Source: Streptomyces globisporus (lineage in GTDB: Bacteria > Actinomycetota > Actinomycetes > Streptomycetales > Streptomycetaceae). From it: a stretch of DNA of 64,000 bases. Position 1 is the first letter of the stretch, and every line of letters starts with the position of its first letter. The position numbers and the translations under genes are program-made. The DNA is taken from NCBI GenBank assembly GCA_014649555.1, contig BMTG01000003.1, forward strand, positions 372,001-436,000. Direction: 5' to 3'. Shown one piece after another: positions 3,173-40,209 of the stretch. The notes below the pieces were generated by a model. It searched no databases. It was not told the origin of the DNA and was given only the letters and a program-made list of their open reading frames with translations.

Positions 3173-4768
3173 ATGCCGTACGCCCCCGCCAACGCCCACA
3201 TCCACTTCGCCCTCCACCCCGACCACCATCCCGCCGTCATCGCCACCACGACAGGCCCCACGGCCGACGCCGCCCGCTCCCACCTCCACGACCTCGGATG
3301 GCGTAGCACCGGCCCGACCACGATGGTCCTGGCCCGCATCGACTGCGAAGAGCCTCATCACACCGCCCAGGCCGCCGAGCAGCTCCGGCGGTACGGCTTC
3401 ACCACCGAGATCTACCCCGCCCTACAGGAGGAGATCGACACCGAGTGGACCTGGGCGAACTACCCCATGTCCTGGTGCAGCCGCGACGAGGTCCGCGAGG
3501 TGAGCGCCGAGGCCCAGCGCATCCACGACGACATCGCCGAAGGCCGCCTGACCATCCACCTGCACGCCCACGACGGCCACACCACCGTCGCCGTCGGCTC
3601 CTACAAGGAAGGCGTCCGGCGGCACGTGCACCTCCACGGCGAGGACCACCTCCGCCAGGAGACCGACCTCACGTTCCCCACCGAAGCGGAGGCGGTCGCC
3701 GAGTTCCACCGCCTCTACGGCGTCGCCGTCCGCCCCGGCCCCGCCCCGCTCACCAGCCGAGAGCAGGCCGCCCGCCAGCTCCTCGTGGGCAAGCCCCCGT
3801 CCGCCGCCGAGGAGACCCCTGCCCCCGCGGCCGAACCGCCGGCCGCGGAGCCTGGCGAGCACGAAGCATTCCTCGCCGCCCTCTTCGACGAGGACCGCCA
3901 GTGGGAGAAGTACCGCCCCTTCGACGAAACGGCCATCGCCTCCCACGAATCCCTCACCGTTCGGGCCGAGTTCGACCACGAAGCACGCCACCGCACCGAC
4001 GTCGCCTGGACGATCGCCGAGTACGACGGCCCCGTCGGCGAGCGCCTCTGGCACGCCACCCTGACCGCCAGCACCCCCGTCCCCCTCATCCGCGCGATAC
4101 TCCAGCACCTCGACTCCCCGCCGCTCAGCACCGCGGACCACCCGGACAACGTCCTCCACGGCGCCGCCTGGCACCCGGCGAGCCACCCCGCCCGCACCAC
4201 CTGGACGGCACCGGACCGAACCATCGCCTTCGAGTCCACCCCGCACGCCACGGCGGACCGATGGACGCTGTACGGCGGGGAGGACCTCGACCGGGTGGCG
4301 TGGACCATCCGCCTCTCCGCCGGCGTTCCCCACGCCCTCCTGGCCGAGCTCGCCCAGACCGCCGTGGACCTGTTCCCGTCGACCACACGGCCAGCTCCGA
4401 GGCCGCTTCCGGCGCCCGCCGGCTGGCTTCCCGCAGCCGTGCCTGCCCAGCGTGCCCGCGGTAGGCAACCGACCCCGACAGCTGCTGTCGTAGGGGGGCT
4501 GACTACTGAGGGCCAGGCACCCTGGGTTGTTGGGGAACGCTCTGCGGACTCGCGCCCAAGGGAGGGGCTTTACCTCTGCTGCCCTCGATGCAGACTGCGC
4601 CTGTCTGAGCGCCGAAGGCGTGTCAGGGACCAAGCTGTCGTTCTCTCGTCTGTACTTACGCCAACCTGTCAGAGCCCCTCAGTAGCCTTGGCTCATGAGG
4701 GCCAACGACTTTTTCCGAACGGTCATCACCGGTACTGGTGGCTGGGGAGAACCCCTAACGGCCTCTGA
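3173..4768 (+). CDS. DUF317-domain protein of integrative elements, altered C-terminus
   Basis: ATG at 3173 (MPYAPANAHIHFALHP) is chosen over the longer frame from 2987 because family members begin this way; the longer frame only overlaps the preceding gene fragment. Two DUF317-like units are visible: one through TEWTWANYPMSWCSRDEVRE and VHLHGEDHLR, and a second from HESLTVRAEFDHEARHRTDVAW to LLAELAQTAVDLF. The family is common on Streptomyces plasmids and ICEs next to mobilisation genes; its function is unknown. Beyond about 4400 the sequence becomes low-quality coding and runs 74 bases into the next gene. The natural end has therefore probably been replaced by rearrangement or lost by frameshift. 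Confidence 0.7.
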   Translation: MPYAPANAHIHFALHPDHHPAVIATTTGPTADAARSHLHDLGWRSTGPTTMVLARIDCEEPHHTAQAAEQLRRYGFTTEIYPALQEEIDTEWTWANYPMSWCSRDEVREVSAEAQRIHDDIAEGRLTIHLHAHDGHTTVAVGSYKEGVRRHVHLHGEDHLRQETDLTFPTEAEAVAEFHRLYGVAVRPGPAPLTSREQAARQLLVGKPPSAAEETPAPAAEPPAAEPGEHEAFLAALFDEDRQWEKYRPFDETAIASHESLTVRAEFDHEARHRTDVAWTIAEYDGPVGERLWHATLTASTPVPLIRAILQHLDSPPLSTADHPDNVLHGAAWHPASHPARTTWTAPDRTIAFESTPHATADRWTLYGGEDLDRVAWTIRLSAGVPHALLAELAQTAVDLFPSTTRPAPRPLPAPAGWLPAAVPAQRARGRQPTPTAAVVGGLTTEGQAPWVVGERSADSRPREGLYLCCPRCRLRLSERRRRVRDQAVVLSSVLTPTCQSPSVALAHEGQRLFPNGHHRYWWLGRTPNGL

Positions 4769-5852: not shown

Positions 5853-5855
5853 CCT

Positions 5856-6383: not shown

Positions 6384-8906
6384 TCAGAGTTGCAGGATCA
6401 GCGTCTCCACCTGGTCGAGCGACGTCACGCTGGCCCGGGCCGCGTCCCGCGCCTTCGACAGCTTCTCCATCCACTCGATCCGCTGATCGGCCGGCAGCCG
6501 ACCTTCTCCGAGCTGGGCCCGCAGGCGACGTGCCTCCTCGAAGTCCGTCATCAGCGTGTGGGCGGAGTCCACTGCCCGCTGGTAACTCCCCTCGACGAGC
6601 TCGACACGGGCGGGCAGCTGCTGCCGCAGCATGTCCAGCTGGTCGCGGGGGTCGACCCGCACCTCCTCGCGGGAGGTGCCGCCGTCGCCGGCACCAGCAC
6701 TGTTCCCGGTGCCCATGGAAGTGCTAGCGTCTCCTCCGGCCGGGGCCGGGCGGCCGAGCTCCACGGGGAACATCTCGTCGAACCACGCCTTGTCGGCGAC
6801 GTAGCCGGTGGGCCGGCCCTCGATGTCCGGGGCGATCACCATGCCCGCGGTGATCGGCGTCCGGTCCTTCTCGCTCCAGTGCTGCTCGCCGTAGCAGACC
6901 AGGGGCGTGCCGTCCTGTGCCTCGGGCGGCTGCGTCGCGTCCGGGTGCTCCAGCACGGCCTTCGTGAACGCCAGGAGAAGGGCCCGGCTGATGTTCGGGA
7001 CGTTGTTCTGCGTGTACGCCAGGGTGAGGGCGGCGAGGGCACTGCTGGGGCTGCGGCGCACGCCCTTGCGTCCGTCTCCCGCCTCGCTGCCCTGGCCGGG
7101 CGTGATGAACGGCTGCGGTCCGTGGATCAGCGCAGGCGCCATCCGCTTGACCAGGGCGGCCCAGGCGGTCGGGTCACCGGCCTCCGCCCCGAGGAACAGC
7201 TCCCTCAGCGGCCGGGGGTCCTGCACGGCGCCCTTCTGGACCTCCTTCGTGCCGAAGAAGCCCAGCGCGGAGAGGATGTTGCCCTGATGGAGGAACAGCT
7301 GCGCGACGGCGGCGGACCACAGCCGCGTGCGCGCCTCGGCGGTCTTCGCCCGGATCTGGCTCCACGCCGACTCCTGCAGTGCGCCCCGCACGATCGGCCA
7401 GAACCGCCCCGTGTCGCGGACGGTCCGCCTGCTCGACTTCGGAGTGTTCTCGGGCGGGATCTCGGGAAACACGAGCGCGGTGATGGCCCGCACCGCGATG
7501 TCGCGCAGCACGGTGGGGGAGACCTCCTCGCCGGCGGGGACGAGCGGTTCGAGCGGGTCGAGCGGCCCGTTGGCGGTCAGGGCGTCGCGCACGTCGGCCA
7601 GGTCGAGGAAGTCCACACCACGGGCGTTGGGGAACGCCTCGGCGAGGGCCGCAGCCAGGGCCGACTCCCTGGCGTAGGAGTCGACGAGCGTCGCGAACAG
7701 GGCGATCAGGCGCGCGTCCTCCTCGTAGGGCTGGATGCCGCGCAGGTGATCGTTGACGTTCAGCGTCCGCAGGACGTGTTCCAGCGCCTCCGGCCTGCTG
7801 CAGCCGATCACGATCTCCGCGGACACCGTGGCGATCTTCCCCGCCCGCAGCGACGGGTCGGTCGGCAGTGTTTCCGGCTCGGCAGCGTCCTGGTTGAGCC
7901 GGTGAGAGAGCCGGTTCAGGATCTCCCGCAGACTTAGCAGCAGCAGTCCGGGGTCGGTCTTCTCCTTCGGCAGGGACACCAAGGACTGGGGCATTCCCGT
8001 CACCAGGTGCTCCGGACGCACGCGGAAGACTTCCAGACGGGCCAGCGCCCGGTTGTTGCCGGTCACGGCGGCCAGCCGCCACGGCTTCGACACCGTGCCG
8101 TCGGAGTTGGTGATCTGCCACTGCTGCAGGACGTTCATGCCCTTGGAGAGCTGGCCCGCGTCCACCAGGGACTCCACCAGGTCGTACCCGCGAGTCCTGC
8201 CGGCACGCTCCAGGCTCTCGGCGGCGTAGCGCTGCAGGTGGAGGGCCACTGCGTACGGCTGCTCCGCCAGGACGAGCGCCGCCTTCGGCTCCCCCGCCTC
8301 CTCCGCGGAGCGAACCACGGGACGCGGCCTCCGGTTACCCAGGGCAGCGAGGAGGACCTGACGCCTGCCCTCAAGCTCGGTCACTCGGCGAAGGGCGTCC
8401 TGGTGCTTCTGCGTGGCCGCCGTCAGCGCCTGCGCGGCGTACGACTCGTCTCCCGGCGCGCGACGGCAAGCCTCCACCTCCTTCTCGGCGGACTTCGCGG
8501 CCTTCGTGGCTTCCTCCAGCGCCGCCTCGGCGGCGACGAGGTCCTCGACACGCTGGTTGGCCTCCGGGAGGGGCGGGGACCAGGCCGGGACAGTGCGGTC
8601 GTTGAGGTGCCACGGGGCAGCCGCGGCGCCGTGGATGTCGCACATAAGCAGCAGCACCTGATCGGTACCGGCCTGCACGAGCCGGTGGGCAGTCTGCTTG
8701 AGAACCTTCTTGCCGCGCTGGGTGGAGATCAGGTTCCTGATCTCGGTGTCCGGAAGAGCGGTGGCGAGACCCTCGGTGATCGCCTGCCGGGGAGGCGGTA
8801 CTACCCCCAGGTCTGCGCAGGTGTTCTCGACGGCGTCCGCGAGGCGCTCACCCCAGGTGGTGGTGCCGACGTAGGGGTAGTCGCCGTCAGGCCGTTTCGT
8901 GGCCAT
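6384..8906 (-). CDS. Unrecognised 840-aa protein with coiled coils; candidate defence component
   Basis: Start ATG at 8906 (MATKRPDGDYPYVGTTTWGE); a longer frame to 9062 exists but adds low-complexity residues. I do not recognise the family. Visible features are a helical, charged stretch around residues 125-195 (RVEDLVAAEAALEEATKAAK and following), likely coiled coil, and a short segment WRLAAVTGNNRALARLEVF. The latter faintly recalls the GxxR motif of ParB/DGQHR-type domains. There is a long alpha-helical middle, and a second charged helical end from DPRDQLDMLRQQLPARVELV. There is no signal peptide and there are no membrane helices, so it is cytosolic. It is divergent from the DUF3800 gene across about 500 bases. 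Placement inside a defence island suggests a role there, which is inference only. Confidence 0.6.
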   Translation of the reverse strand: MATKRPDGDYPYVGTTTWGERLADAVENTCADLGVVPPPRQAITEGLATALPDTEIRNLISTQRGKKVLKQTAHRLVQAGTDQVLLLMCDIHGAAAAPWHLNDRTVPAWSPPLPEANQRVEDLVAAEAALEEATKAAKSAEKEVEACRRAPGDESYAAQALTAATQKHQDALRRVTELEGRRQVLLAALGNRRPRPVVRSAEEAGEPKAALVLAEQPYAVALHLQRYAAESLERAGRTRGYDLVESLVDAGQLSKGMNVLQQWQITNSDGTVSKPWRLAAVTGNNRALARLEVFRVRPEHLVTGMPQSLVSLPKEKTDPGLLLLSLREILNRLSHRLNQDAAEPETLPTDPSLRAGKIATVSAEIVIGCSRPEALEHVLRTLNVNDHLRGIQPYEEDARLIALFATLVDSYARESALAAALAEAFPNARGVDFLDLADVRDALTANGPLDPLEPLVPAGEEVSPTVLRDIAVRAITALVFPEIPPENTPKSSRRTVRDTGRFWPIVRGALQESAWSQIRAKTAEARTRLWSAAVAQLFLHQGNILSALGFFGTKEVQKGAVQDPRPLRELFLGAEAGDPTAWAALVKRMAPALIHGPQPFITPGQGSEAGDGRKGVRRSPSSALAALTLAYTQNNVPNISRALLLAFTKAVLEHPDATQPPEAQDGTPLVCYGEQHWSEKDRTPITAGMVIAPDIEGRPTGYVADKAWFDEMFPVELGRPAPAGGDASTSMGTGNSAGAGDGGTSREEVRVDPRDQLDMLRQQLPARVELVEGSYQRAVDSAHTLMTDFEEARRLRAQLGEGRLPADQRIEWMEKLSKARDAARASVTSLDQVETLILQL

Positions 8907-9408
8907 GGTGTCGTCCTTCCACCCGGCCGTGCCGGGCGTACACAACGCCCCCGCTTCTCGGGAGCATGACACGCGCCCGAGGGCCGAAGCCTCGTGCCGG
9001 CAAGGCGTGAACCGACACCCGTGAACTGAGATGCGCGGAACTCCTTGCCCCGTACGGTCCACCTGCCAACGTCCGAAGAAGGATCAACCCCACAGCACCA
9101 TGGGGCGCTTGGGAATCTCGCAGCTTGCTCCTGCTCCGCCGACGGCGGCATGAGGCGGACGCCGGTGATGAGCCACCGACGTGCACCGCCGAATGTGCCA
9201 CTGGTCTCGGCGCCCCGGCGAGCCGAAACAGCAGAGTTCACCAGATCAGGTGAACCATCTCCACGAAGCCTCACTGCAGAGCGAGTTGAGGTAGGAACAG
9301 TGCGCTGGGAGTCAGGGTCGCCAAGGGCGCACGTCTCTCACCGTGCTCCCATCTCCCCGCCGACCACGCAGTACGCGAGCAGGGCCAGTCCGGCGACCGG
9401 AGCGCCCG
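8907..9408. other. Divergent intergenic region, no gene seen
   Basis: About 500 bases between the leftward 840-residue gene and the rightward DUF3800 gene. Reading frames here lack family resemblance or a consistent codon pattern. It must contain the promoters of both genes, but I see no convincing -35/-10 pair or long palindrome. Confidence 0.5.
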
Positions 9409-10536
9409 ATGGACAATGGCGTCATGGCCTTGACCGGAGAGAAGTACACCCAGCTCAACCAGAACGAGCCGACCTCGGACGACGCAGGCGGGGGACGCTG
9501 GATCGCGTGCGACGAGTCTGGATGGGATGGCGAGCAGCTCGCCGGCCGGAAGCGCCGTTTCCTTGTCTTCGCGTCCGTCGCCATCGACGACGCCGAGGCG
9601 GCCCCACTGATCGACACCCTGCGTAAGCAGGCCCGGATCCAGCAGGCCGGGGAGCTGAAGTTCCGCCTGTTCAAGGACCGCGAGGAGCGGTGGTCCCTGC
9701 TGAAGGATCTGTGGGGTTCCGCCGGCGCTCTGCACGAACGCTGCTCGGTGTACGTGATCGACAAGGAGTACGCCGTGGCAGCGAAGGCGATCGATCTGCT
9801 GCTGGAGGAGAAGGCACACGCCGAGGGGCGGAACCTGTACGCCGAGGGCAAGGCGCGCGCCATGGCCCGGACACTGGCGCTCCAGGGACCGCGCGCCCTT
9901 CCGGGCGCGCTGTTCGATGCGCTGATGTCCTCGTTCGTGGCCCTGGCTTCCCAGCGCGCCCGGGGACGGGAGGAAGCCGCGTTGGAGGCGTTCTTCGCTG
10001 CGGTCGAACATGCATGGGGCGCCTCAACACGGCGGCCCGTAACTGAGGTGCTGGCCCAGGTGCGCTCCACCCGGCCGTACGCCATGGCCCTCCACCAGGA
10101 AGACTCCCCGTTCCCGTCCCTGGAGATGCTCATCCCTTCGGTGACTCAGACAGCCCGCCGATGGGGACACAGCCTCGGGCTCGTCAGCCTCCTCACCGAT
10201 GAACAGCGCGTATTCACCGACGATGCCCTTCGCACGGTGCTGGAGTACGCCACCAGTCCGATAGGCATGACCCTCCTGACCCGCGAGAGGGGCGCCCCCG
10301 TGCACACCGTGCTCCGCGGCTCTTCCGCGGACCACCCTTCCATCCAGCTGGCCGACCTGCTGGCCGGGGCCGCAGCAGCCGTGACCGAACGCCACGTAGG
10401 TAACCCCTCCCCCGCCGCCGAGGGGCTGTGGCCGGTCATCGTGCCCCTGGTCGAACAGAGCTCGTTGATGTCCTACGACAACCCGGGCCTCCAACTCGCC
10501 GGGATCGAGACCCGCCGCACGCGGCGGTCCGGGTAG
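9409..10536 (+). CDS. DUF3800-family (RNase H-like fold) protein
   Basis: The protein starts at ATG 9409 (MDNGVMALTGEK) or at the in-frame ATG 9424; neither has a strong ribosome site. WIACDESGWDGEQL near the start and SIQLADLLAGAAAAVTE near the end are the two conserved acidic motifs of DUF3800 (DESG...QLADLxAG), a family with a predicted RNase H-like nuclease fold. The intervening LVFASVAIDDAEAAPLIDTL fits the first beta strand and helix. It is about 375 residues, longer than the 200-250 usual for the family, with the extra length in the middle. DUF3800 genes occur often in defence islands. The partner is probably the divergent 840-residue gene. Confidence 0.72.
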   Translation: MDNGVMALTGEKYTQLNQNEPTSDDAGGGRWIACDESGWDGEQLAGRKRRFLVFASVAIDDAEAAPLIDTLRKQARIQQAGELKFRLFKDREERWSLLKDLWGSAGALHERCSVYVIDKEYAVAAKAIDLLLEEKAHAEGRNLYAEGKARAMARTLALQGPRALPGALFDALMSSFVALASQRARGREEAALEAFFAAVEHAWGASTRRPVTEVLAQVRSTRPYAMALHQEDSPFPSLEMLIPSVTQTARRWGHSLGLVSLLTDEQRVFTDDALRTVLEYATSPIGMTLLTRERGAPVHTVLRGSSADHPSIQLADLLAGAAAAVTERHVGNPSPAAEGLWPVIVPLVEQSSLMSYDNPGLQLAGIETRRTRRSG

Positions 10537-10894: not shown

Positions 10895-11779
10895 TCACGC
10901 AGCCGCGTAACTCGCGCGGAACAGGTCCCGTGCCCGCTCCACGTCCTTCGGCGTACGGAGCTGCACCTCCAGATCACCCGTCCCGTGGTGTCCGAGACCG
11001 GACACGTCCCGGGTGAAGCCCGGAACAAGATCGACGTCCTCGGGGTCGACCTTCAGGTAGACCAGGACCTTGGTCCGCTGCGGCGGACAAACGCAGGCGA
11101 AGTTCCGCAGCCGCTGATACGCCCGGTATGTCTTGCGCTCGACGCGATTCACACCGTCCCCGAGCCCAAGCAGCGCCTCGTCGACCGCGCTCGCCAGCTC
11201 CATCATCGGCATGCCCTGGACGTTGACCGCCTGGGCGACCGCCTGCCGACGCGCCCTGCGGGCAACCGGCACGCCTCCGCTGACGGATGCCACGGTCTCA
11301 AGCCCGACCAGTTCGCTGCCGAAAAATCGGTAGCGGACCAGGTCGATCGAACGCCGGTGCTCGCGCACGGCGTGCACGTCGTAACGGGTGAAGTCGCCGG
11401 CGAGGCAGATCAGGCGCGGGCCGCTCCACAGCACCTGGGACGCGGCCGTAGCCCCGAGCCGGTCGCGGACCAGGTGCTCGAACTCGGCTCGGTGGTCCAC
11501 CAGCCAGCTGAGATAGAACAGGCCCTGGTTGATGACGCCGGCGTCGACCCCTCGCTTGTACTCGACTATGACCGGCGATCCGTTCTCGTCCAGCCCCAGC
11601 GAGTCGATCCGGCCCCCGTGGACCGGCCCGGTGGTGTACTCGCTCGCCAGGAACCGAACGCCCAACAGCGTCTCCATGTGGGCCTCGACGAGACCCTGCA
11701 CATCTGCCTCGACCTCAGCCAGGCGCGACACGACCTCGGTCACGTCGTCTTTCGTGTTGAACAGCCTCAGCCCCGACAC
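10895..11779 (-). CDS. NucS-like nuclease-fold protein with C-terminal DUF5655
   Basis: GTG start at 11779 (MSGLRLFNTK), 294 residues. The N-terminal half carries a RecB/NucS-type PD-(D/E)XK core: GGRIDSLGLDENGSPVIVEY followed by KRG, with Asp59, Glu73 and Lys75 as metal and catalytic residues. The C-terminal 90 residues, from RKTYRAYQRLRNFACVCP to DLEVQLRTPKDVERARDLF, match the DUF5655 domain that usually follows such cores. Proteins of this design are widespread orphan genes near mobile elements, and DNA cleavage or binding is likely. It is single, with no obvious partner. Sure about fold; function is not established. Confidence 0.75.
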   Translation of the reverse strand: MSGLRLFNTKDDVTEVVSRLAEVEADVQGLVEAHMETLLGVRFLASEYTTGPVHGGRIDSLGLDENGSPVIVEYKRGVDAGVINQGLFYLSWLVDHRAEFEHLVRDRLGATAASQVLWSGPRLICLAGDFTRYDVHAVREHRRSIDLVRYRFFGSELVGLETVASVSGGVPVARRARRQAVAQAVNVQGMPMMELASAVDEALLGLGDGVNRVERKTYRAYQRLRNFACVCPPQRTKVLVYLKVDPEDVDLVPGFTRDVSGLGHHGTGDLEVQLRTPKDVERARDLFRASYAAA

Positions 11780-13784: not shown

Positions 13785-14596
13785 CGCAGTACGACGATGT
13801 TGCCGCAGCAGCCCGGATGGTGGCTCTGGGTATGACACGCGGCAAGTCCCCAGCACGTTCTGGAGAGTACGCCCACCTCGTGCGGCGGTTCGAAACGGAA
13901 CCGGACTTTGCCCAGTTGGTGCGGAAGGTCGCGCAGGGTTTTGACCTCACGGTCCGGGAGGTGCACCCGCAGGCGGGGCTGGTCCTGGCAACCACGACCG
14001 AGACGGCCTTCGCCGTCTCGATCAGCGACCTCGTGCCGAACGCGGAGAACCGGCCGCTGTACCTGCTCGCTCACCTGGCCATCGCGTCGCGAGCCTTCCC
14101 TCGTCCGGAGGACTTGGACGACGACGAGCACGTCGCCCGGGTATCGGTGCAGAAGGTCGACGAAGACGTCAGGGCCTATGCGACCGTCCTTGAGCGCCGT
14201 GCTGCAGCCGCCGACGAGGACACCGACCCGCCAGCCGGCAGCCCCGGGCTGGAGGGGTTGTGGCGGGCCTACCTGCGTCGAAACCCCACCGGTCGTACGG
14301 ACAAGGACAGGACTCCTCGCTCGGCGACCTATGCGCTGGTGAGGAGGGCGTTCGCGCATCTCGAGCAGCGCGGATTCGTCCGCCCGACCAGTGAGGAAGA
14401 GGGCGGCACCTACGCCACCAACGTCCTGTACAGGCTGCACATCCGTGACCAGGCAGCCCGGGAAATGCTCCAGGAACTGGCCGCCCTGGGCTTGGCTGCC
14501 TTACCGCACCACGATGCGCCACTCCCGTCCGAGGCTCCGAAGCAGCCGGACGCTACCGACCACGGCATGCTCCCGAACTCCGCCCCAGCCACCTGA
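13781..14596 (+). CDS. jetB: Wadjet-like KITE/winged-helix subunit (JetB-like)
   Basis: 271 residues; ATG overlaps the jetA stop and the stop lies 28 bases before jetC. The region ATYALVRRAFAHLEQRGFVR, followed by GGTYATNVLYRLHIRDQAA, looks like a winged-helix unit of KITE proteins (MukE, JetB). VEHPQAG-like VREVHPQAGLVLATTTETAF earlier is another family feature of such subunits. The last 35 residues are proline-rich and probably disordered. KITE dimers clamp the kleisin on the SMC heads. Assignment is from gene order, size and the winged-helix look, not from a named domain. Confidence 0.65.
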   Translation: MTQYDDVAAAARMVALGMTRGKSPARSGEYAHLVRRFETEPDFAQLVRKVAQGFDLTVREVHPQAGLVLATTTETAFAVSISDLVPNAENRPLYLLAHLAIASRAFPRPEDLDDDEHVARVSVQKVDEDVRAYATVLERRAAAADEDTDPPAGSPGLEGLWRAYLRRNPTGRTDKDRTPRSATYALVRRAFAHLEQRGFVRPTSEEEGGTYATNVLYRLHIRDQAAREMLQELAALGLAALPHHDAPLPSEAPKQPDATDHGMLPNSAPAT

Positions 14597-20143: not shown

Positions 20144-20347
20144 GTTCATCGGGAGACCGCGAGTATCTCCAGGCAGGCGTCCGCCGGCAGGCGTCCGGGG
20201 CACGGGTGACGCCTCGGCGGGCGAGGCGGCAGCAGCGGGAACGGTGCATTCCCACAGGCCATCGAGCACAAGATCGTCCGAGACGCAACACTACGCCGCC
20301 GCCAAGACCCTGCACCGAACTCATTCTGAAACGATCAGTGAGCGTTT

Positions 20348-21865: not shown

Positions 21866-21882
21866 AACAGGGCTCTCAAATG

Positions 21883-30762: not shown

Positions 30763-31028
30763 CCCGTCTCCACCCCTCGTGTTCCCTTCCGGCTTGGATA
30801 CTCAGATGCGATCGCCTACACGCCTGTCGAAGCCGATGCAGAGTCACAGGACTAGCGGAGCAGGTGAGGAGCCATGCTAAGCCAGCATTGGTCGCGGCCA
30901 CTCAGCTTCACCAATGAGCCACGGCCGCGTGTCCGGCCCCATGCGCACAGGACCCAAGCCCGTTCGCCAGGCGATCTTCGCACCAGAAGTAAGTGCACAC
31001 ATAATAGGTCCGCCGTACACCTTTGGCG

Positions 31029-34000
31029 TTACTTCATCTCGCGGACACGGGACATGGCGCGGAAGAGCTCTCGCTCTCGACCTTCCTCCATGGCCTCCAG
31101 TACCCACTCCGGTGTTTGTGCAAGTTGGCGTGCCGCAAGTCGAAGCAGATCTTCGTCGTTCATCCAGTCCGCAGAGGGGGTGAGGGGCATGCGTCGCTCT
31201 AGCAGGTGGGCGACAACCCGAGGCCGGACTCCAGCTCTCATCCATGCGATGACACCCGGATTGCCAGCGCCCCATCTGACAGCGAACGGCAGCAGGCTGA
31301 GCGCTCTGGAGCACGCCTCTGGCAGCTCCCAGCGGCCGGGTTGTAGTTCGGATTCGCACCCTGTAGCGACGATCGCTCCAATCGCGCCCGCCAGCACACT
31401 TAGCCTGAACCCGAAACCTCGGTCGGTAAGACCAATGATTTTTGGAAGGGGCATGCCTTGCCCGCGGCCGCCAGTCCTTTCGGCGTGCGGTCCGAGGGCG
31501 TGGCCTGCTACGGACAGCAGGTCTTCCCCTTGGATCCAGGCGATCAGGGTGGCTGCCAGCGCCCGGTGTCCCTCGGCAGCGTCGTCCGGATCGGAAGACC
31601 AAAGGGCTTCGATGGCGGTGGACCGGTAGTCGTTGGTCAGCGGAAGTAGGCTCTCCACCATCTCTGGTCGAGCTGACGCGAGAGCGTCCACAAGAAGGTA
31701 GGCCCAGCCCTCTACCGTGCTGGGTGCTTCGTACGCGTCCAGCTGAGCGAGGAGCCAGCGGTAGAGGTACGAGGTTTCCGGGAGTCCGAGTCCTGCCCGG
31801 TGGGCTGCCAGGCTCACCCAGTCCGGTACTTGTTCCTGAGCGAGGAAGGCTGAGCCAGTGGCTTCCAGGGCTTCGGCGATTGCTTCGCCCTGGCTTGCGG
31901 CTCCAGCCCTGTGCACCGCCCAGGTCAGTCGCACCACTCCGGGTGCATCGCCACTGCCTGCGGCGAAGGAGAGGAACGAGAATGCGGACTGTTCTTCGCC
32001 CTCCAAGGTGGCGACCTCCAGGCTTTCGCCGAGGGCCTTTTCGATGAGCCCGTCGAGTCTGCTGCTGATGTCGTTAGCGGCGTCTTCCTGGGTCAGGAAG
32101 GACGCCCCGGTCGTGAGGGCCAACCTCTTGCCGCTGGTGCCGTCTGTCACGTGGGTGGCTCTTCCGGGTACAACCACAGCAATCGACCGGGCAGATGTGT
32201 AGGCGCGTCCGGCTCTTCCGATGGCGTTCAGAAGTTGGGTGCGTGAACGCCGCTCACGCTCGGCAGGTGAGGCATCCTGGTCGAAGCCGACCTCCGTCCC
32301 ACCGATGACCACCGCTGTGGCCGGCAGGTTCAGGCCCTGCGACAACGTGCCGGTGGCGAACAGCACTCGTACCCGGTCTCGGTCGAAGGAGATTTCGCTG
32401 GCGCGTTGTTCTTCGCGTAGGAGGGCGCCAGTGTGCACGCCCACGCCTTTCTCCAGGGTGGCCCTCAGCTCCGATTCGATGCCGAGCTCGGCATCTGCCA
32501 GGGTGAGCAGTGCCTCGATGTCCGCGTCATGGTTCGCTGGAACCCAGTCCGCGGATCCAGGCAACTTGACGGCCTGAGTGAAGCTGTGGTGCCGGTTTTT
32601 GGGAAGAAAGGCCAGGACACGGTGGCCTTTATCAGCCATGGCTGTGACGATGGCCGCAGTCATCGGGAGGCATACGCCTGTTGGAGATGGCCCATCTGTG
32701 CGGTGTAGCTCCTTGGGAGACAGCACGGGGGTCCGAACCACCCGGTAGTCCTTTGGGTGGTTTGTTGCCCATGCCCCCTGAAGTCCGACCAGCAACGATA
32801 TGGGAGCATCATAGGTGAGCTTCTTCCGGCTTCCTGGAAGGGCAGCCAGGCGATCCCTGGCCAGAGCCTGAGCGGCCTCCTCTCCAGCCTGGTCGAACCC
32901 TGCGATTGCTCGCAGGGTCCTTGTGGGACGCCACGGGTGGCTGATGGGTACGGCTTCTACGCCGGTCACTGCGGTGAGCCAGTCCGCGAGTTCGTCTGCG
33001 TTGGCAACCAGTGCCGACATCAGTAGCGCTCTCACGTGAGGTGCGCGATGAAGTACTTCGGCTATGACGAGCTCCGTGAGCGCGCCGCGCCCGTTTGGCT
33101 CCTCGATGAGGTGCGCTTCGTCGAGGATGCAGAGGCGGAGGTCTTCGAAGGCGTCAGGGTTCTGTCTCAGGGCCAGCGAGCACTTCTCGGGTGTCATCAC
33201 CAAAACCTGGCAGGAACCGATGACGGCGAGGTCCTCGCTCTCGAGAAGGGCATACTCGGCGCCGCCGAGGAACCCTCGCACCTGTACGCCGGGCAGGGAA
33301 TCGAAGACTGAAGACAACCGTCGCACCAGCTGGCCCACTAGGGCGTTCGTCGGTGCGAGGTAGAGCACCCATCCGCGGTGGAGGGTCTGCGCGATGGCGA
33401 GTTCCGCAACCGCCGACTTGCCCGCCCCGGTGGGCACGCAGACGACGGCATGAGCGTGGGGTCCCGGGAGGGCCTGCTCGGAGTAAATCCTGGCGGAGGG
33501 CCATAGCAGGGGCCGTGATTTCGCTTGCTCCTGCACGTAGCTCGCAAAGCGCCCGTCCTCGTCGGGCGGAGTCGGGACGGAACGCAGAGCTCGTGTCTCG
33601 TCTTCCTCCAATACCTTTGCGAGCAGAACGGCGATGTGGTGGATGTCGGGGTGGACGACTTGGCCTCCCCAGCCATCCGCGTCTGGGTGCAACAGCGAGA
33701 TCAGCGTGCGGATGTCCTCAACCGCGGTCCGTAGGGCACCTGGCTGGTGGGTGAGCCACTGCGTGTGGCGTCGTACCGCCTGCCCCATCTTCCGCCAGAG
33801 TGCATGCCGGACGCGGACGTCCAGGTGCTCACTGCGACTAGGCACTGGTGGCGCTTGGGGAAGATCGGGACTCACCTGAGCCGCCAGCAACTCGCGAAAG
33901 GTTCCCATAGCCCATTCAGACGCGGGGGACTCAGCATCTATCGGCGTGTCGAGCTCACCGATTTCGCCCCCGCATCGCGCTGCATTCGCATCGTAACCCG

Positions 34001-34436
34001 CGATGCGATAGAGCAGCCCGGCTTCCAGTTGCTCGTATCTTCGGGCCGAGCCAAGCGGAGAGGCGAAGCTCAAGGGGACTTCTGGATCCGGCTGCTCATT
34101 GCATATCGACAAAGCCTCTGCAGCTACAAAAGCGCATGCCTGCACCGTGACCGCCGGCAGTCCGGGCACCAGAACAGCGTGCACTTCCAATGCGGTGGCC
34201 AGTCTGCGCAGCGCAGCTCTGGGGGACGTCCAGCCTGCCGTGATAAATGACGAGTCGGGCACACCTATGCGCTCCGTACTTCGTACGCTCGGCGCCGGCG
34301 CCAGATCGCGCCACTCCATGATATCCACCCAGGCGCGGGTCAGCATGCGCCTAATGTCGCTCCCATCGAACTCGCCGATTCGCGGCAGCTCTTGAAGTAG
34401 TTCGTATACCCCGCGATTGAACACGTCACACCACAA
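31029..34436 (-). CDS. hamB: Hachiman HamB, superfamily 2 helicase
   Basis: About 1135 residues. It starts with TTG at 34436 or, more likely on codon grounds, GTG at 34424; either way it overlaps or abuts the hamA stop at 34426. Helicase motifs: Walker A VCVPTGAGKSAVAELA (Lys340), Walker B box DEAH (439-442) in LCILDEAHLIEE, motif III-like LLMSAL, and motif VI QLLNAIGRAGRAYT. A 300-residue N-terminal extension and a helical C-terminus match the size of HamB. In Hachiman the helicase senses aberrant DNA and releases the HamA nuclease. The assignment rests on the hamA partner and tandem order. Confidence 0.83.
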   Translation of the reverse strand: MWCDVFNRGVYELLQELPRIGEFDGSDIRRMLTRAWVDIMEWRDLAPAPSVRSTERIGVPDSSFITAGWTSPRAALRRLATALEVHAVLVPGLPAVTVQACAFVAAEALSICNEQPDPEVPLSFASPLGSARRYEQLEAGLLYRIAGYDANAARCGGEIGELDTPIDAESPASEWAMGTFRELLAAQVSPDLPQAPPVPSRSEHLDVRVRHALWRKMGQAVRRHTQWLTHQPGALRTAVEDIRTLISLLHPDADGWGGQVVHPDIHHIAVLLAKVLEEDETRALRSVPTPPDEDGRFASYVQEQAKSRPLLWPSARIYSEQALPGPHAHAVVCVPTGAGKSAVAELAIAQTLHRGWVLYLAPTNALVGQLVRRLSSVFDSLPGVQVRGFLGGAEYALLESEDLAVIGSCQVLVMTPEKCSLALRQNPDAFEDLRLCILDEAHLIEEPNGRGALTELVIAEVLHRAPHVRALLMSALVANADELADWLTAVTGVEAVPISHPWRPTRTLRAIAGFDQAGEEAAQALARDRLAALPGSRKKLTYDAPISLLVGLQGAWATNHPKDYRVVRTPVLSPKELHRTDGPSPTGVCLPMTAAIVTAMADKGHRVLAFLPKNRHHSFTQAVKLPGSADWVPANHDADIEALLTLADAELGIESELRATLEKGVGVHTGALLREEQRASEISFDRDRVRVLFATGTLSQGLNLPATAVVIGGTEVGFDQDASPAERERRSRTQLLNAIGRAGRAYTSARSIAVVVPGRATHVTDGTSGKRLALTTGASFLTQEDAANDISSRLDGLIEKALGESLEVATLEGEEQSAFSFLSFAAGSGDAPGVVRLTWAVHRAGAASQGEAIAEALEATGSAFLAQEQVPDWVSLAAHRAGLGLPETSYLYRWLLAQLDAYEAPSTVEGWAYLLVDALASARPEMVESLLPLTNDYRSTAIEALWSSDPDDAAEGHRALAATLIAWIQGEDLLSVAGHALGPHAERTGGRGQGMPLPKIIGLTDRGFGFRLSVLAGAIGAIVATGCESELQPGRWELPEACSRALSLLPFAVRWGAGNPGVIAWMRAGVRPRVVAHLLERRMPLTPSADWMNDEDLLRLAARQLAQTPEWVLEAMEEGRERELFRAMSRVREMK

Positions 34437-35316
34437 TCTCCGTCACGGCTTCCCGCATGGCGTCAGCAACAGCATCGAAGAATCCGTGAAAGTCTTGCAG
34501 GCGAATTATCAAAAGTCGCTTGTGCTCGCGGGGAGGAGTCAAGTCCTTCAGAGTGACCCGGTCTCTCCTCGCGTCAAAGGGTACTTCATGTACGATAGAC
34601 GGAACGTAACACCTTTGCTTCAGAACGGAATTGGCCACTTGTCCGGCGAGCTCGGTCGAAAGGTACCCTTCCAGAGCCATGAGCTCTTGCCTCAAGTGGC
34701 GCAGATGATCTCCCGAATCAAGGCTCTTGAATATTTTCGCTGCTTGAGTCAACTGCCCACTGCCATCGAGGCGGGACGCCTTGCTCTCCCCTATCGCTAG
34801 AGATAGAACATCCCCACGCACGTAAAGAGCCACAGCATCAAAACCCTGCTGGGTCGGAATGGGATGCATCTGACGCAGCGCGTGAATACGTCCGCCAAGC
34901 AGCTCTCCGGGATCCCGGTTTTGCAGTACCAGAAGCACATGGAGCAGGCCCTCAGCGAGCCATGCGTTCCTTTTCGTGTCACGGAAGAGGATCTCGCCGT
35001 CCGTGACGAATGAGTTGTTTGCCCCGATCAGTTCAACTACGTCGCCCGCAAGCTGTTCCCGATCGTCCGCCCCTCCCACGAGAAGAGCGGCTGCAAGACT
35101 GACATTGCACCTCACCGCGCCGAGGAGCAGGCCCACCAGCACCCTGCCGAGACTCCTCGCCACTTCCGACGACTCAACCCCCGACACGACCAGCGCCGTA
35201 TGGGACGACGGCTCGGGCAACGCCCTCAAGCTCACGGATGCCGCTATTTCATCCAGCGCTGCCTCAACCAGCTGAAGAGACAAGACCACCCCCGACTGTA
35301 TGCCTCCGACAGCCAT
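34426..35316 (-). CDS. hamA: Hachiman HamA, DUF1837-type nuclease
   Basis: 296 residues, the usual HamA length, directly upstream of and overlapping the helicase gene by 11 bases. The centre has a PD-(D/E)XK core: AEGLLHVLLVL (Glu122), QGFDAVALYVRGDVLSLAIG (Asp160) and ESKAS (Glu177, Lys179), the ESK signature of DUF1837. In Hachiman this subunit is a DNA nuclease held inactive by HamB until infection. I judge the pair complete: no frameshift, all catalytic residues present. It is the first gene of the leftward operon, with about 340 bases of upstream sequence. Confidence 0.82.
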   Translation of the reverse strand: MAVGGIQSGVVLSLQLVEAALDEIAASVSLRALPEPSSHTALVVSGVESSEVARSLGRVLVGLLLGAVRCNVSLAAALLVGGADDREQLAGDVVELIGANNSFVTDGEILFRDTKRNAWLAEGLLHVLLVLQNRDPGELLGGRIHALRQMHPIPTQQGFDAVALYVRGDVLSLAIGESKASRLDGSGQLTQAAKIFKSLDSGDHLRHLRQELMALEGYLSTELAGQVANSVLKQRCYVPSIVHEVPFDARRDRVTLKDLTPPREHKRLLIIRLQDFHGFFDAVADAMREAVTEIVV

Positions 35317-35659
35317 ACCATACGTCCACAGCTGTGAAGCTCTCCGCTGTCATCACGCACACTCGAGGAGAGATGACCCGGCCCCTCACGCGCCGCGGCG
35401 TGAGCGGCCGATGTGCACGGGGACCTGGCCGACGATAGTCACCCAGCGGTTCCCGGATTCGCCCCAATAGGGAACGGGCCGACGAGACACGGGGACGGTG
35501 CGGCGTTCGCCCGGCCGCAGGGTGCCTTTGGCGAAGCCGGGAGGGTTCGCCACTGCCCCTATGTCTCTCAGTGCGCCCTGTTTCCGCAGTTCAGCCCCGA
35601 TTGTCAGACCCGCCCCGTAGCGTTGTCCGTCCCACTCGTAGCGGCTGCGGGGAGTACTG
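35317..35659. other. Divergent intergenic region, no gene seen
   Basis: Lies between hamA (leftward) and the CoiA-like gene (rightward). No reading frame with coding character and no long palindrome; promoters for both genes should be here. A GGGGAG ribosome site precedes the ATG at 35660. Confidence 0.5.
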
Positions 35660-36883
35660 ATGGACGACGACCTTCAGATCGACAGCGACGAAGACCTCTT
35701 CCGCAACCCCGTCTACTACGAACCGGCCGGCCGCAACCTCGACCTGGACCGCCCCGACCTCGGCGTCCCGCAAGGCCAAGACCTCCTGAACGTGCTCCTG
35801 CGCATGCGAGGACGTGTCCCCATCGAAAAGCGCGGGCTCATCTGCCCCGACTGCCGGGACCTCCGCGGTCGGCGCGTCTCCATGTACCTCGTCCAGCGTG
35901 ACGGCGTATGGCTTGCCTCCCACTACCGGAAACCCGGAGAGAAGCCCATTAGCCACGAGTCCGACGAGCATCTCGCCCGCAAGGAACGCGTGGCGAAGGA
36001 CTCCGAAGATCACGGCTTCCACGCCGAAATCGAGTCGCAGACCGCCGACGGGCACGCACGCCTCGACGTACGCATCAGCGGCGCGAACGGCATCGTCCTG
36101 GGCTACGAGCCTCAGTTGAGCGCCCAGTCAGCCCGCGGAATGCGTGCACGGGAGGGGTTCCGTCGCCGCGGTGGTATCCAGTCGGTCTGGGACTTCGCCG
36201 ACCCCGACCACGCAGGCATCGGCGCCGTCCCTTACGTCCGCACGCCGAACCTGCCGGCCTCTGTCATCCGCGTGCAGAAGAACCCCATCGCGGTCCAGGA
36301 CGGCAACTTCGTCCTGGAGGAGGGCGAGTGCAGCCAAAACGGCACGCTCACCCGGTGCCCGGAGAAGCCCTACGACCCGGAGAACCCCACCGACGCCGGG
36401 TACTGCGGGGGCTGGCACCGCGTCCTCGTGCCCGCCCATCAGTCGAGCACCTTCACAGGGGAAGGCCGCCTGACCCTCACCCAGTTCATCGTGGAAGCTG
36501 CGGCCGGCGAGCGAATCCCGTTCCAACGGGGCGGCCACCACGGTTGGCTCCCCGCACGGCAGTGGCAGCAATACCTCGAGGCGAACGGGCCCCACTCGGA
36601 CGACAAGGAGCGCCAGTCATCTGTACGACAGGGGGACCGGCGCGACAGATGTACCGAGGACCGTCCGGCTTCGGAGGTGCGGGTTGAGCCGAAGCAGAGA
36701 CGTGGTAGCCGCGCAATCGTCCTTGAGTCCCGCCCCCGGGAAACCGCGGCCGCCAAGGTGCCGGTTGACGCGCAGGGTCAAGCGATCCCGCTCTGCCGCT
36801 TCGGCTGCGGTCAGCCCGCCAGCCTCCCAGGACCCGAAGGGCTGCCCGAGCACTTCTCGTGCCGCAGTAAGCATGAGGCGTGA
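35660..36883 (+). CDS. CoiA-like competence/conjugation-associated protein
   Basis: 407 residues from ATG 35660. A zinc-binding pair LICPDCRDLRG (about 60-70) is followed by the CoiA-type core: ISHESDEHLARKERVAKDSE, then FHAEIESQTADGHARLDVRI, then VLGYEPQLSAQSARGM. This keeps the H, E, D and E-x-Q residues of the CoiA PD-(D/E)XK fold and the tail GGIQSVWDF. A long second part contains LCRFGCGQPASLPG near the end, another possible zinc site. In actinomycetes such genes occur on plasmids and integrative elements, and the role is unknown. It sits between Hachiman and the second STAND gene, ending at a strong terminator. Confidence 0.65.
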   Translation: MDDDLQIDSDEDLFRNPVYYEPAGRNLDLDRPDLGVPQGQDLLNVLLRMRGRVPIEKRGLICPDCRDLRGRRVSMYLVQRDGVWLASHYRKPGEKPISHESDEHLARKERVAKDSEDHGFHAEIESQTADGHARLDVRISGANGIVLGYEPQLSAQSARGMRAREGFRRRGGIQSVWDFADPDHAGIGAVPYVRTPNLPASVIRVQKNPIAVQDGNFVLEEGECSQNGTLTRCPEKPYDPENPTDAGYCGGWHRVLVPAHQSSTFTGEGRLTLTQFIVEAAAGERIPFQRGGHHGWLPARQWQQYLEANGPHSDDKERQSSVRQGDRRDRCTEDRPASEVRVEPKQRRGSRAIVLESRPRETAAAKVPVDAQGQAIPLCRFGCGQPASLPGPEGLPEHFSCRSKHEA

Positions 36884-36922
36884 TCTGTCGGCCACCACTG
36901 CCCCCGGCTTCATCACCTGGTG

Positions 36923-36956
36923 TCAGAGCCCCCTGAGCCTACTCAGGGCGCTCTGA
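36923..36956. terminator. Hairpin terminator after the CoiA-like gene
   Basis: Two seven-pair stem segments (TCAGAGC and CCCTGAG with complements) separated by one C-C mismatch, with a CCTA loop. It lies 40 bases after the stop. The following stretch to 37383 holds no recognisable gene. Confidence 0.75.
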
Positions 36957-37383
36957 CTTACGCCTTGCGCTCACCCGCTCAGCGCAGGCCGCTGCCCTGC
37001 ACCCGCAGACAGCTACTCAACGTGCCTTTGTCAGCAGCTGCAGGGGCGTGATGTCCCGTGCCACCAGCCCCGCCGCAACGTCCCTTCCTGGGGAGAATCT
37101 GGGGAGTATCGGCGGGCCTGGGGAGCGCGTGGGAGAATCGACCGCGTAACACAGCACGATCCCGAAAGACTTATCCGCGCAGGTCAGGGGCGGGTGCAGC
37201 CGCATCGATGCAGGTCAGCGCCACCAGGTAGACAACTTCATGACGTACGTGCCGAGATCGTGGGTAGGCGAGGTCGCCTGGCTCTGGTGGCGCAGCATGG
37301 TGACCAACCAGCACAGGTGGGGCCGGCCGGCAGCAGCCTCCGCCGCTCGGCACGCCAGATGTCATCGGCAACAACGACATGAC

Positions 37384-40209
37384 TCATGGTTGGAATCCTC
37401 TACGGATTAGCCACTCCCGGGCTGATACTGACCCTGCAAGTGCAGCGGCGCGGTTCAGACGCTCGGCGTCGTGGATATCGCCGTTGAAGAATCTCAGTTG
37501 GGCGAGCCCATGCAGGGCGTGGCTGTTTCCGGCCGCCACCGCTGCGTGTGCCAGGTCCTCGGCACGCTGATGGTGACCTTGTCCTTCGCTGTGCCATGAC
37601 ATCCACTCAAGAGCCTTCGGGTGCTTTGCAGCGGCAGCCGCGCTGTAGAAACACATGGCAGTGGCGTGGTCACGGTGGTCTGATCTTTCGCGCGCGAAGG
37701 CCACCAGGACATCAGTATGGCCGTGACCAGCGATGCGTCGGCACAACCGTTCCGCATCATCGGATGCTCCGGCAGTGACACGCAACTGAGCAAGCGCGAG
37801 GGCGGCGGATGGGATTCCGTACTCTGTGAGGGCGGTGTGCGCTAGACGCTCTGCCGCGATCCGATCGCCGCGGGCTTCGTGGTACGCAGTGAGCCACCGC
37901 GCGGCGACTGGGTCTCCAGTGTCGGCGGCCCATGAGTAAATGCGTGCGGCCGAATGGCGCATGCCCAGCGTCAGCAGGTGGTGAGCCAGGCTGCGCTGAC
38001 CGTTTCGGTTACCGCTCACCTCGTACGCCCGGCGAGCCAGGCGCTCAGCCTCTTTGTAGTGGCCGGCAAGTCCGAGAGCCGCAGAGAGCTCGCCAAGGAG
38101 GAACCCGTCGAGACAGTGCCCCTCAATGATCTGTTCCGCCCGCTCGAAGCGTCTGAGGTCAATGAGGCGACGGGTGAACCAGTGAAGCACGATTACGTCG
38201 CCGCACTCCGCCGCCTTCAGATAGAGCTGTTCACAGCTCACCACTCCCAGGCGACGCGCGGCCTGTGCGAGTTCCCGCGTGTCCGTGTCTGTACGCGAGT
38301 GTGCCGCTGCTGCCACCCACAGAGAGGGAGCAGGACGTTCCCTCTCTCTAGTTGCCCGGCTCTTCTCATGGAGGAAGTCGGCAAGTTGATACAACGAGCT
38401 GTCGGTAGATGGCTCGTAGAGACGAGGCCGATGGCGCATCAGCGGCCCAGGAAGCTGACGATGCGGTCGAAGGAGCTTGGCCAGGTGGGAGGCGAACCAG
38501 TCCTCGTCCAAGCTGTGCCATGTGGAGTCATCCACGTAGCCCTCACAGGCAACCCGCAAAAAGCTTTCAGACAGCAGGGGACCATGTCCACAGCGGCGTG
38601 CGTCCATGGCGGCGTGAAGAATGGCACGGGCCGCCCCTTCGGACTGCTCGTAGCGTCGCCATAGATGTGGGGCTCCAGCAAGGAACTGAGCGATGCGTCC
38701 ACTGGCAGCACGGGTTCGGGCCAGCGTCAGGCGCGGGTCGGAGTTGACTACAGCCTCAGCACGGGCCAGCTCCGGTTCACTGAACGCGGCAGGCATCCGA
38801 ACAGTGACCGCCAGGTCAGCAAGCTGACCCACCGCGCCCATCCCAGTGTCCAGGTGGTCATCGTCCTCGACGGAGCTCTCCGTCAGCTTCTCCCAGAAGC
38901 TCGGCCACATGGTGCCCAGGACCAGCACGGGCCCGCGCTGTTGGTTCGTCAACAGGTCCTGCAAGCTTGCTGAGACCTGTGCGGCGTAGTCCTTGACCAG
39001 CAAGTAAAGGTTTGCTTCGTTCAGCCACAGCACGGTTCGTGGCTGCAGCACACCCTCCTGCAACGCATGCAGGAGTGCCGCCGGCCGATCCGGAGCCAGC
39101 GGATGCACAATCTTCCAGTCCGGGAGTTCAGCCCGCACTGCTTCCCAGCAGGATCGTGTCTTGCCTGTTGAGGAGCCACCAACCACCATCACCAGTCGGC
39201 TCCCGTCGACCGCCTCAGCTACCTCGCGCCGCAGCTCGTTATCAACGCTGGCCGGACGGGCGATGTAGGGAGGGAGTACCGCTAGCGCACCAGGGGCTCC
39301 ACCCATCTCCAAGGCGGGATGCACCTCGAAGCGCAAGGCGTCAATGGGCTCCAGTTCCCCGACCACGCGAACCTGGTGTGAGGCACCGACCCGCTGCAAC
39401 CCGGCCGGCGGATCACTGCGCAACACGATGCCACGAGCCTGCAGTGCGGTCCGCAACATGGCAGCATCAATCACACCAGCCCGCGGCCCCCACTCCTGTG
39501 CCAGCGCCTCGATCATCCGGTACGCCACAGCGGCGTCATGTTTGGTCTCGGCCGCAAGCACCCGGTCATTCAACAGAGCGCACAAGTAGGGATAGCGCGG
39601 ACTGACTTGCTCGGTAGGCTCAATCTGCACGACGAGACGTCGAGCGATTCGGAAAGCGCTTAGCTCCACCAACTCCTGTTCGGGAGCAGCCTCACTTTCT
39701 GCAAGTACGTCACGGACGGTGTCCGCCAGGTGTTTCCATACCCGACGGTGCTCCTGTCCCAAGCCCGGCAGGATTCTCAGAAGGTGGTCTACGCCTTTCT
39801 GCGCAGCAGCGTACGCAGCCAAGCTCTGCAGCACCTCCAAGCCATGCGAGGGGCCGGAGGCGGTCACACCTAGCCTGTGCCGGTCGGCATCTATTTCCCC
39901 ACCAAACGACTCCAGACTCTCCACGCACTGCCGGATCGTCTTGCGCCAGGGATCGCTGCTGCGAGCGATCTCCAACGTTCGTTTGACCTGCCGTTCCACG
40001 GCCAACTCGTAAGGGCCTTCACGGTTGAGAACCACCACGTCGTCCAGAGGGAACTCCCTGCCCTGCTGCAGGCAGACCGAGTCCGGCACCACGTCTAGCC
40101 CCGGAACGCTCACGCCGCACAGCAGAGCGGCCAGATCCAGGGCCGCGACTCGATACTCATAGATCGTGCCAGCCCCACCCGTGCCAATCGAGGAAGCCCC
40201 TCTGCTCAA
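37384..40209 (-). CDS. STAND-type ATPase with N-terminal nuclease and C-terminal TPR/Sel1-like repeats
   Basis: TTG start at 40209, 941 residues. The N-terminus resembles DUF4297/Cap4 nucleases: GAGTIYEYRVAALDLAALLC, then EFPLDDVVVLNREGPYELAV and RQVKRTL, giving Asp56/57 and Q-x-K (74-76). A P-loop GGSSTGKT (344-351) in LVMVVGGSSTGKTRSCWEAV and a Walker B-like RTVLWLNEANLYLL follow. From about 640 to the end come helical repeats of roughly 35 residues (ERAEQIIEGH, YKEAERLARRAYEVSGNRNG, DRIAAERLAHTALTEYGIPS) typical of TPR/Sel1 sensors. Nuclease-ATPase-repeats is the architecture of abortive-infection STAND proteins. It is a single-gene candidate defence system. Lacks a classic Avs C-terminus, so the trigger is unknown. 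Confidence 0.72.
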   Translation of the reverse strand: MSRGASSIGTGGAGTIYEYRVAALDLAALLCGVSVPGLDVVPDSVCLQQGREFPLDDVVVLNREGPYELAVERQVKRTLEIARSSDPWRKTIRQCVESLESFGGEIDADRHRLGVTASGPSHGLEVLQSLAAYAAAQKGVDHLLRILPGLGQEHRRVWKHLADTVRDVLAESEAAPEQELVELSAFRIARRLVVQIEPTEQVSPRYPYLCALLNDRVLAAETKHDAAVAYRMIEALAQEWGPRAGVIDAAMLRTALQARGIVLRSDPPAGLQRVGASHQVRVVGELEPIDALRFEVHPALEMGGAPGALAVLPPYIARPASVDNELRREVAEAVDGSRLVMVVGGSSTGKTRSCWEAVRAELPDWKIVHPLAPDRPAALLHALQEGVLQPRTVLWLNEANLYLLVKDYAAQVSASLQDLLTNQQRGPVLVLGTMWPSFWEKLTESSVEDDDHLDTGMGAVGQLADLAVTVRMPAAFSEPELARAEAVVNSDPRLTLARTRAASGRIAQFLAGAPHLWRRYEQSEGAARAILHAAMDARRCGHGPLLSESFLRVACEGYVDDSTWHSLDEDWFASHLAKLLRPHRQLPGPLMRHRPRLYEPSTDSSLYQLADFLHEKSRATRERERPAPSLWVAAAAHSRTDTDTRELAQAARRLGVVSCEQLYLKAAECGDVIVLHWFTRRLIDLRRFERAEQIIEGHCLDGFLLGELSAALGLAGHYKEAERLARRAYEVSGNRNGQRSLAHHLLTLGMRHSAARIYSWAADTGDPVAARWLTAYHEARGDRIAAERLAHTALTEYGIPSAALALAQLRVTAGASDDAERLCRRIAGHGHTDVLVAFARERSDHRDHATAMCFYSAAAAAKHPKALEWMSWHSEGQGHHQRAEDLAHAAVAAGNSHALHGLAQLRFFNGDIHDAERLNRAAALAGSVSAREWLIRRGFQP

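Follow-up and report, generated by a model that had tools for sequence, protein, structure and literature searches.

A defence island of Streptomyces globisporus as the probable cargo of a decayed conjugation-type element at a conserved DUF317/PDC-S18 border

Hotspots in which a border stays fixed while the defence genes beside it are swapped are described for P2/P4 phages (PMC9122126) and for Pseudomonas islands (PMC10250203, PMC12629846). As far as the available text of these reports goes, the locus presented here shares this arrangement but differs in its backbone, which is of a Streptomyces conjugation type, in its border gene, which combines NucS_C and DUF5655 domains, and in having cargo on both sides. 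Streptomyces ICEs and AICEs also have conserved mobility genes and variable cargo, including restriction and phage-resistance genes, and undergo decay and accretion (PMC9513070); the available text of that study deals mainly with TraB-type AICEs and with general cargo classes, and a DnaB-DUF317-DUF5655 border is absent from it. In actinobacteria, defence islands are clusters of up to six systems, and Wadjet is enriched toward the ends of Streptomyces chromosomes (PMC10482375). The available part of the same work quantifies mobile origin through plasmids (3.4%) and prophages (2.0%) but not through chromosomal conjugation-type elements. No description of a DUF317-PDC-S18 border was found among open-licence papers.

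The window is a stretch of 64,000 nucleotides from S. globisporus (contig BMTG01000003.1, positions 372,001 to 436,000), in which genes were called from codon-position G+C. A first-pass annotation, made from the sequence alone, had described a dense island of at least seven defence modules among the scars of mobile elements. PADLOC and Pfam profiles were run on 20 reading frames of the window, a set that includes IS5, DUF317, one flank gene and two alternative frames. Seven of the 20 give PADLOC matches at E ≤ 1e-10, and the 68 proteins of the flank control match two PADLOC families only. The 36-kb defence island is real. Profiles or solved chains support JetA, JetC and JetD of Wadjet III, Avs2, a Hachiman-type helicase, PDC-S18 and a PDC-M54A-type nuclease domain. 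The annotated cluster holds for the most part, five of its named modules being backed by PADLOC; the PD-(D/E)XK nuclease, JetB and the second STAND ATPase are read from motif or position, and HamA, an integrase and half of a tRNA gene were not confirmed.

The marks of mobile elements are partly those announced. An IS256-family transposase gene (401-1654, reverse strand; Transposase_mut, PF00872, E 6e-69), whose plasmid copies are annotated IS256, lies to the left of the truncated element. Two different IS5-type transposase genes (24274-25023, PF13359, E 5e-27, and 25152-25958, PF13359, E 6e-26, both on the reverse strand) and a third copy, reduced to a remnant (20336-20518; blastn identity of 77% with the IS5 copy of 24.2-25.1 kb), account for the three IS5 elements of the first-pass annotation. 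The tRNA half was not recovered, since ARAGORN finds none and Rfam none up to E = 2. There is no integrase among the scanned window proteins, and a search for recombinase motifs in the window and the other locus stretches gave none (a decayed copy could be missed).

DUF317, which had been taken for one more scattered scar, turns out to be one half of a conserved border that was missed earlier; PDC-S18 is the other half. In the window the border begins with a remnant of a DnaB-like gene (2788-3045, forward strand), which aligns with residues 253-338 of 372 at 76% identity in a tblastn search with the backbone DnaB-like protein and forms the truncated left edge of the backbone. It is followed by the DUF317 gene (3173-4768, forward strand; PF03771, E 1e-11; 41% to the backbone DUF317), whose reading frame opens at 2987, the start at 3173 being the gene caller's choice. 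The PDC-S18 gene (10895-11779, reverse strand) is convergent to DUF317. It was correctly read at first as a NucS-like/DUF5655 nuclease gene: PADLOC (PDLC04946, E 3e-139) and Pfam (DUF5655, PF18899, E 1e-7) both recognise it, with the NucS_C domain below its Pfam cut-off. The gap between DUF317 and PDC-S18 measures about 6 kb and contains three genes, which encode a 385-aa protein, an 840-aa protein and a DUF3800 protein.

PDC-S18 occurs in 132 of 295 genomes of the genus, with three copies in the window's own genome, all on one contig. Forty loci were compared as stretches of 18 kb, oriented so that PDC-S18 points left as it does in the window. They include one locus per genome and the second copy of the window's genome; not every listed place was used (G050:C113, G116, G347 and extra copies within a genome, among others, were skipped), and G091 was treated apart as L071. 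In these 40 loci, a non-random set drawn from the head of a single similarity list, tblastn finds on the left of PDC-S18, in the same orientation, a DnaB-like gene in 26, a methyltransferase gene in 25 and DUF317 in 25, and a TraG-like gene in 10 within a view of 9 kb. On the right of PDC-S18 in the same loci, DUF317 is found once, and the DnaB-like, methyltransferase and TraG-like genes not at all. No backbone is in view in 13 of the 40, so PDC-S18 also exists without it. The distance from DUF317 to PDC-S18 is 161-339 bp in 15 of 25 loci, 726-915 bp in four and 2.5-5.8 kb in six; genes are therefore sometimes inserted between the two.

The backbone carries the domains TraG-D_C, C5 methylase, DnaB N and DUF317. 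A long series of genes farther left is common to three genomes; its products include a TraG/VirD4-like coupling protein and have NlpC/P60, EccE-like and N6-methylase domains. A circular plasmid record of 18,766 bp contains genes for a coupling protein, DUF317, a methyltransferase, a DnaB-like protein and DUF5655, and one region of another plasmid combines annotated type IV secretion genes with DnaB-like, DUF317, DUF5655, NACHT and Shedu genes. The coupling protein and the secretion genes are present in relatives and lost from the window. An identity of this secretion-like backbone with the cmdABCDEF cluster of the chromosome (PMC2782261, available in part) was considered and rejected, the same gene order being present on a plasmid annotated 'type IV secretion system'.

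The two sides of the border differ sharply. Within 7 kb in the 26 loci with a backbone, at least one other locus holds a homologue for 116 of 133 genes on the left (for 94, at least five loci do), a recurrence which is partly built in because the loci were picked by their left-hand genes; on the right, where no such selection applies, 19 of 106 genes recur in another locus and none in at least five. Within these selected loci, a fixed border thus separates a conserved backbone from a variable side, as in a hotspot. The right-hand cargo is enriched in defence systems: 359 PADLOC families are matched at E ≤ 1e-10 by a set of 101 proteins taken from 25 loci (a count of families, not of proteins), against two families for the 68 controls, which come from three stretches (the window's own flanks and a flank in S. 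nymphaeiformis) and not from matched loci. This cargo set covers genes of at least 120 aa that start within 7 kb of PDC-S18; L189 and the genes between DUF317 and PDC-S18 were left out. Among the right-hand matches listed are REase_I, MTase_I, SspC/D, LmuB, GajB, Cas1, BrxC and mad2, and the systems represented on this side include type I restriction, Ssp, Lamassu, Gabija and BREX. Wadjet follows PDC-S18 in L171, G107 and G091/L071 as well.

These data bear on a rival explanation, in which the locus is an ordinary defence island in a variable chromosome arm and DUF317 and PDC-S18 are merely two more accessory genes. Neither the left nor the right flank, each queried against 120 relatives and scored at the best candidate places of every genome, gave a syntenic block, and IS256 and IS5 copies are present; defence islands of Streptomyces and the enrichment of Wadjet in the arms are in print (available text of PMC10482375). 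All this would fit an ordinary island. However, 26 of 40 loci agree in the side and the orientation of the backbone, the opposite side has neither a DnaB-like nor a methyltransferase gene, and recurrence falls from 116/133 to 19/106 across a single gene. We consider an ordinary island unlikely. The flanks being variable arm sequence, no single site without the island was found among these relatives.

The reading that we favour, with a probability of about 0.72, is that the island is a defence-cargo hotspot, the cargo of a decayed conjugation-type Streptomyces element at the conserved border. The end of the backbone runs, in order, (TraG/VirD4-like), C5 DNA methyltransferase, DnaB-like and DUF317, directed rightward, and meets the leftward PDC-S18. 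Defence genes that differ from genome to genome lie beyond PDC-S18, and sometimes also in the gap that separates it from DUF317. What is left of the backbone in the window is 86 residues of the DnaB-like gene, then DUF317; the cargo of the gap would be the 385-aa nuclease, the 840-aa protein and the DUF3800 protein, while the cargo beyond PDC-S18 would comprise Wadjet III, the 720-aa nuclease, Avs2, the Hachiman-like pair and the 941-aa ATPase. Recombination would swap cargo at the border, and each module of the window would act as its family does.

PDC-S18 might itself be a defence gene, selected within each of the systems that it neighbours. PADLOC treats it as a phage defence candidate, its NucS_C-like and DUF5655 domains would suit that function, and its relatives adjoin restriction genes on a Cupriavidus plasmid. 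Yet it stands beside many different systems, and no defence gene is recognised by eye in the 9 kb beyond PDC-S18 in L189; the constancy of its orientation relative to the backbone suits a border gene. Selection within each neighbouring system is possible but doubtful. The two ideas are compatible. PDC-S18 matches the PADLOC candidate in sequence, and it appears here as a border gene. L189 (G000:C3:309359-328200) is the second PDC-S18 copy on the window contig, with a DnaB-like gene and DUF317 beside it and a methyltransferase gene called in two pieces. A further copy lies on the same contig at L005:6923-7693.

Wadjet systems cleave circular plasmid DNA. The type III operon of the window consists of four adjacent genes on the forward strand, and the PADLOC models of JetA (12231-13784; 603 bits, E 2e-181), of the SMC-type JetC (14625-19082; 2437 bits over residues 1-1485) and of the nuclease subunit JetD (19079-20143; 402 bits, E 6e-121; also JetD_C, PF09983) are all matched. 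The gene at the JetB position (13781-14596) has no PADLOC match; it sits between JetA and JetC, and its relatives at 67-70% lie beside JetA in other loci. The operon had been called complete, which PADLOC bears out for JetA, JetC and JetD; JetB is putative, by position.

A close counterpart of the island is in S. nymphaeiformis SFB5A, where the shared block extends from DUF317 as far as the 3' end of avs2. The DNA identity is 86% in DUF317, 92% in the 840-aa/DUF3800 stretch, 96% in PDC-S18 and JetA, 98% in the rest of Wadjet and 99% onward to the 720-aa gene and IS5, with 92-99.6% for the cargo overall. The 385-aa gene is missing at the matching place, where there is about 2.1 kb of other sequence; in the window it is a one-gene insert. 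The match ends inside avs2, beside an IS5-type gene, and for window positions 26850-46800 the S. nymphaeiformis genome gives scattered short matches only. The cargo is more alike than the backbone, a pattern suggestive of cargo exchange later than the divergence of the backbones. The same order recurs in a third genome, G091 (L071), with pieces of DUF317, then the 840-aa gene, PDC-S18 and JetA-C, at identities of 54-75%.

In the window, in S. nymphaeiformis and in G091 (there at 54-75%), the order and orientation of the 840-aa protein, PDC-S18 and Wadjet are the same, as would be expected if they formed one extended functional system. The other 840-aa relatives listed (L072, L073, L076, L077, L079, L069) nevertheless lie in stretches without PDC-S18 or Wadjet, PDC-S18 is usually found without the 840-aa protein and Wadjet, and shared descent of the whole border region accounts for the three cases. 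An extended system is therefore improbable; as fixed partners of Wadjet, PDC-S18 and the 840-aa protein are ruled out by the loci that lack the combination.

The genes of the gap had been read as a PD-(D/E)XK nuclease gene and an 840-aa/DUF3800 pair. The 385-aa protein (4695-5852, forward strand), which has relatives on plasmids, shows the PD-(D/E)XK motif by eye and by pattern and has no PADLOC, Pfam or NCBIfam match, so that it is a putative nuclease, by motif. The DUF3800 gene (9343-10536, forward strand), between the 840-aa gene and PDC-S18, matches PF12686 just over the cut-off (22.4 bits for a cut-off of 21), and is not in that place in L071. The 840-aa protein (6384-8906, reverse strand; 892 aa if read from the opening of the frame at 9062) belongs to a family with no named domain; it gives no PADLOC, Pfam or NCBIfam match, and the family yields nothing meaningful in a PDB sequence search. 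The family is present in 30 of 295 genus genomes, in varied places that include the ends of chromosomes and linear plasmids. A role as a telomere replication protein was considered, some relatives being 4-5 kb from such ends, and rejected, as nine relatives at 67-76% are elsewhere or on contigs of unknown place.

In a second branch of this family (L080-L084 and L067; about 38-40% to 6384-9062), a small GIY-YIG-like gene, recognised by eye, is next in six of six loci, with a DEAD/ResIII helicase gene in four, a 550-aa gene in three and a relative of the 385-aa nuclease gene in three. These loci are possibly a multi-gene defence cluster. One genome (G068:C1) has members of the branch at both ends of its chromosome, at a distance of about 5 kb, and a linear Kitasatospora plasmid (NZ_CP108563.1, 226689-229181) has one at 3.8 kb from its end, next to a gene with a helicase-associated domain.

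Beyond Wadjet, the 720-aa protein (21884-24046, forward strand) is the most interesting unnamed gene of the island and a candidate defence protein. It had been called a DUF4297-like nuclease, for which there is no Pfam or NCBIfam domain match; the nuclease part of the call stands, since the N-terminus matches PDC-M54A in PADLOC (E 7.5e-26) and contains the motif IDDL..QAK at residues 82-99. PDC-M54A is itself a PADLOC candidate with a model of about 1,620 positions, and the 720-aa protein matches only its N-terminal nuclease part. A zinc-like motif, C-x2-C/H-x2-C, is found at residues 407-440, and the C-terminal half has no recognised domain. A PDB sequence search with the family gave nothing meaningful, and the structure predicted from a three-row alignment has a mean pLDDT of 39.

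The 720-aa gene has a near-identical copy in S. nymphaeiformis. More distant relatives, similar over most of the length, come from a Gallionella MAG (40%), where the neighbours look like housekeeping genes by eye, and from an Agrobacterium plasmid (28%). On that plasmid (L092:7944-14396), the relative lies about 0.2 kb upstream of a Hachiman-type pair, composed of one DUF1837 and one DEAD/DEAH helicase gene. The gene is found in 3 of 199 relatives, as its own full-length copy and two N-terminal fragments, and in 1 of 396 genomes of the phylum, which is its own; the genome-wide scan used two peptide patterns only, and relatives could be missed. Phage records contain no relative of the protein, and scans of viral contigs with four window proteins gave none.

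Avs2 proteins sense a phage protein and act as nucleases. The gene first read as an Avs-like ATPase (26245-30762, reverse strand) is indeed Avs2: the PADLOC profile aligns over residues 2-1459 of 1505 with 928 bits, a PDB sequence search finds the solved Avs2 chain 9o4e (E 5e-86), and the P-loop GQAGSGKT is at residue 350.

Hachiman is a helicase-nuclease. The helicase part of the earlier Hachiman call is upheld, as the DEAD helicase encoded at 31029-34436 (reverse strand), also recognised by Pfam, matches HamB1 (E 1.5e-40), although PDC-M23B fits better (E 3.9e-52), and it is 28% identical to an Agrobacterium Hachiman-type helicase. The putative HamA gene (34426-35316, reverse strand) owes its name to its position, overlapping the helicase gene, and has a D...ESK motif at residues 160-179. 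It has no PADLOC, Pfam or NCBIfam match and no meaningful hit in a PDB sequence search, and BLASTP does not relate it to any protein annotated as DUF1837. The two genes are paired in one other genome (75% for the putative HamA gene and 77% for the helicase gene), and the putative HamA gene is present in 4 of 295 genus genomes. Because HamA lacks a family match and DUF1837 similarity, the pair is filed, on sequence grounds, as Hachiman-like only.

The last module had been called a second STAND ATPase. The 941-aa protein (37384-40209, reverse strand) does have a P-loop, GGSSTGKT, at residue 344, but matches no PADLOC profile, Avs and STAND profiles included, nor any in Pfam or NCBIfam, and a PDB sequence search gave nothing meaningful. 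Judged by eye, it combines a putative nuclease domain (LDDV..ERQVK at residue 55), a P-loop ATPase and repeats. A relative at 68% lies on a linear plasmid (L091, NZ_CP109471.1, 392492-419344), flanked by a NACHT gene on one side and a DUF3732/ABC-three-component system on the other. To the left of the 941-aa gene, a 407-aa gene (35660-36883, forward strand) has no PADLOC, Pfam or NCBIfam match and resembles by eye CoiA-like proteins of mobile elements.

The first-pass annotation had proposed the unrecognised genes of the island as candidates for immunity. This applies best to the 720-aa nuclease and least to the 840/892-aa protein, with its varied places. The island is not core in all relatives, as shown by the rarity of the 720-aa gene, the 892-aa family and the HamA-position gene (3/199, 30/295 and 4/295), PDC-S18 being commoner (132/295).

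A wider reading, which we offer tentatively, joins these elements. The DUF317-PDC-S18 border would be a dedicated cargo dock of a widespread family of Streptomyces conjugative elements and, for the genus, one of the main carriers of chromosomal immunity; the NucS-like PDC-S18 would assist in the uptake or exchange of cargo, and the unnamed genes at the dock, first of all the 720-aa protein shared with Proteobacteria, would be undescribed immune systems.

The border gene pair would allow variable immune cargo to be extracted from Streptomyces genomes and new systems to be hunted there, as has already been done at the hotspots of other bacteria. It would also give PDC-S18 a second reading, in which its position next to defence genes may stem from its role at the border.
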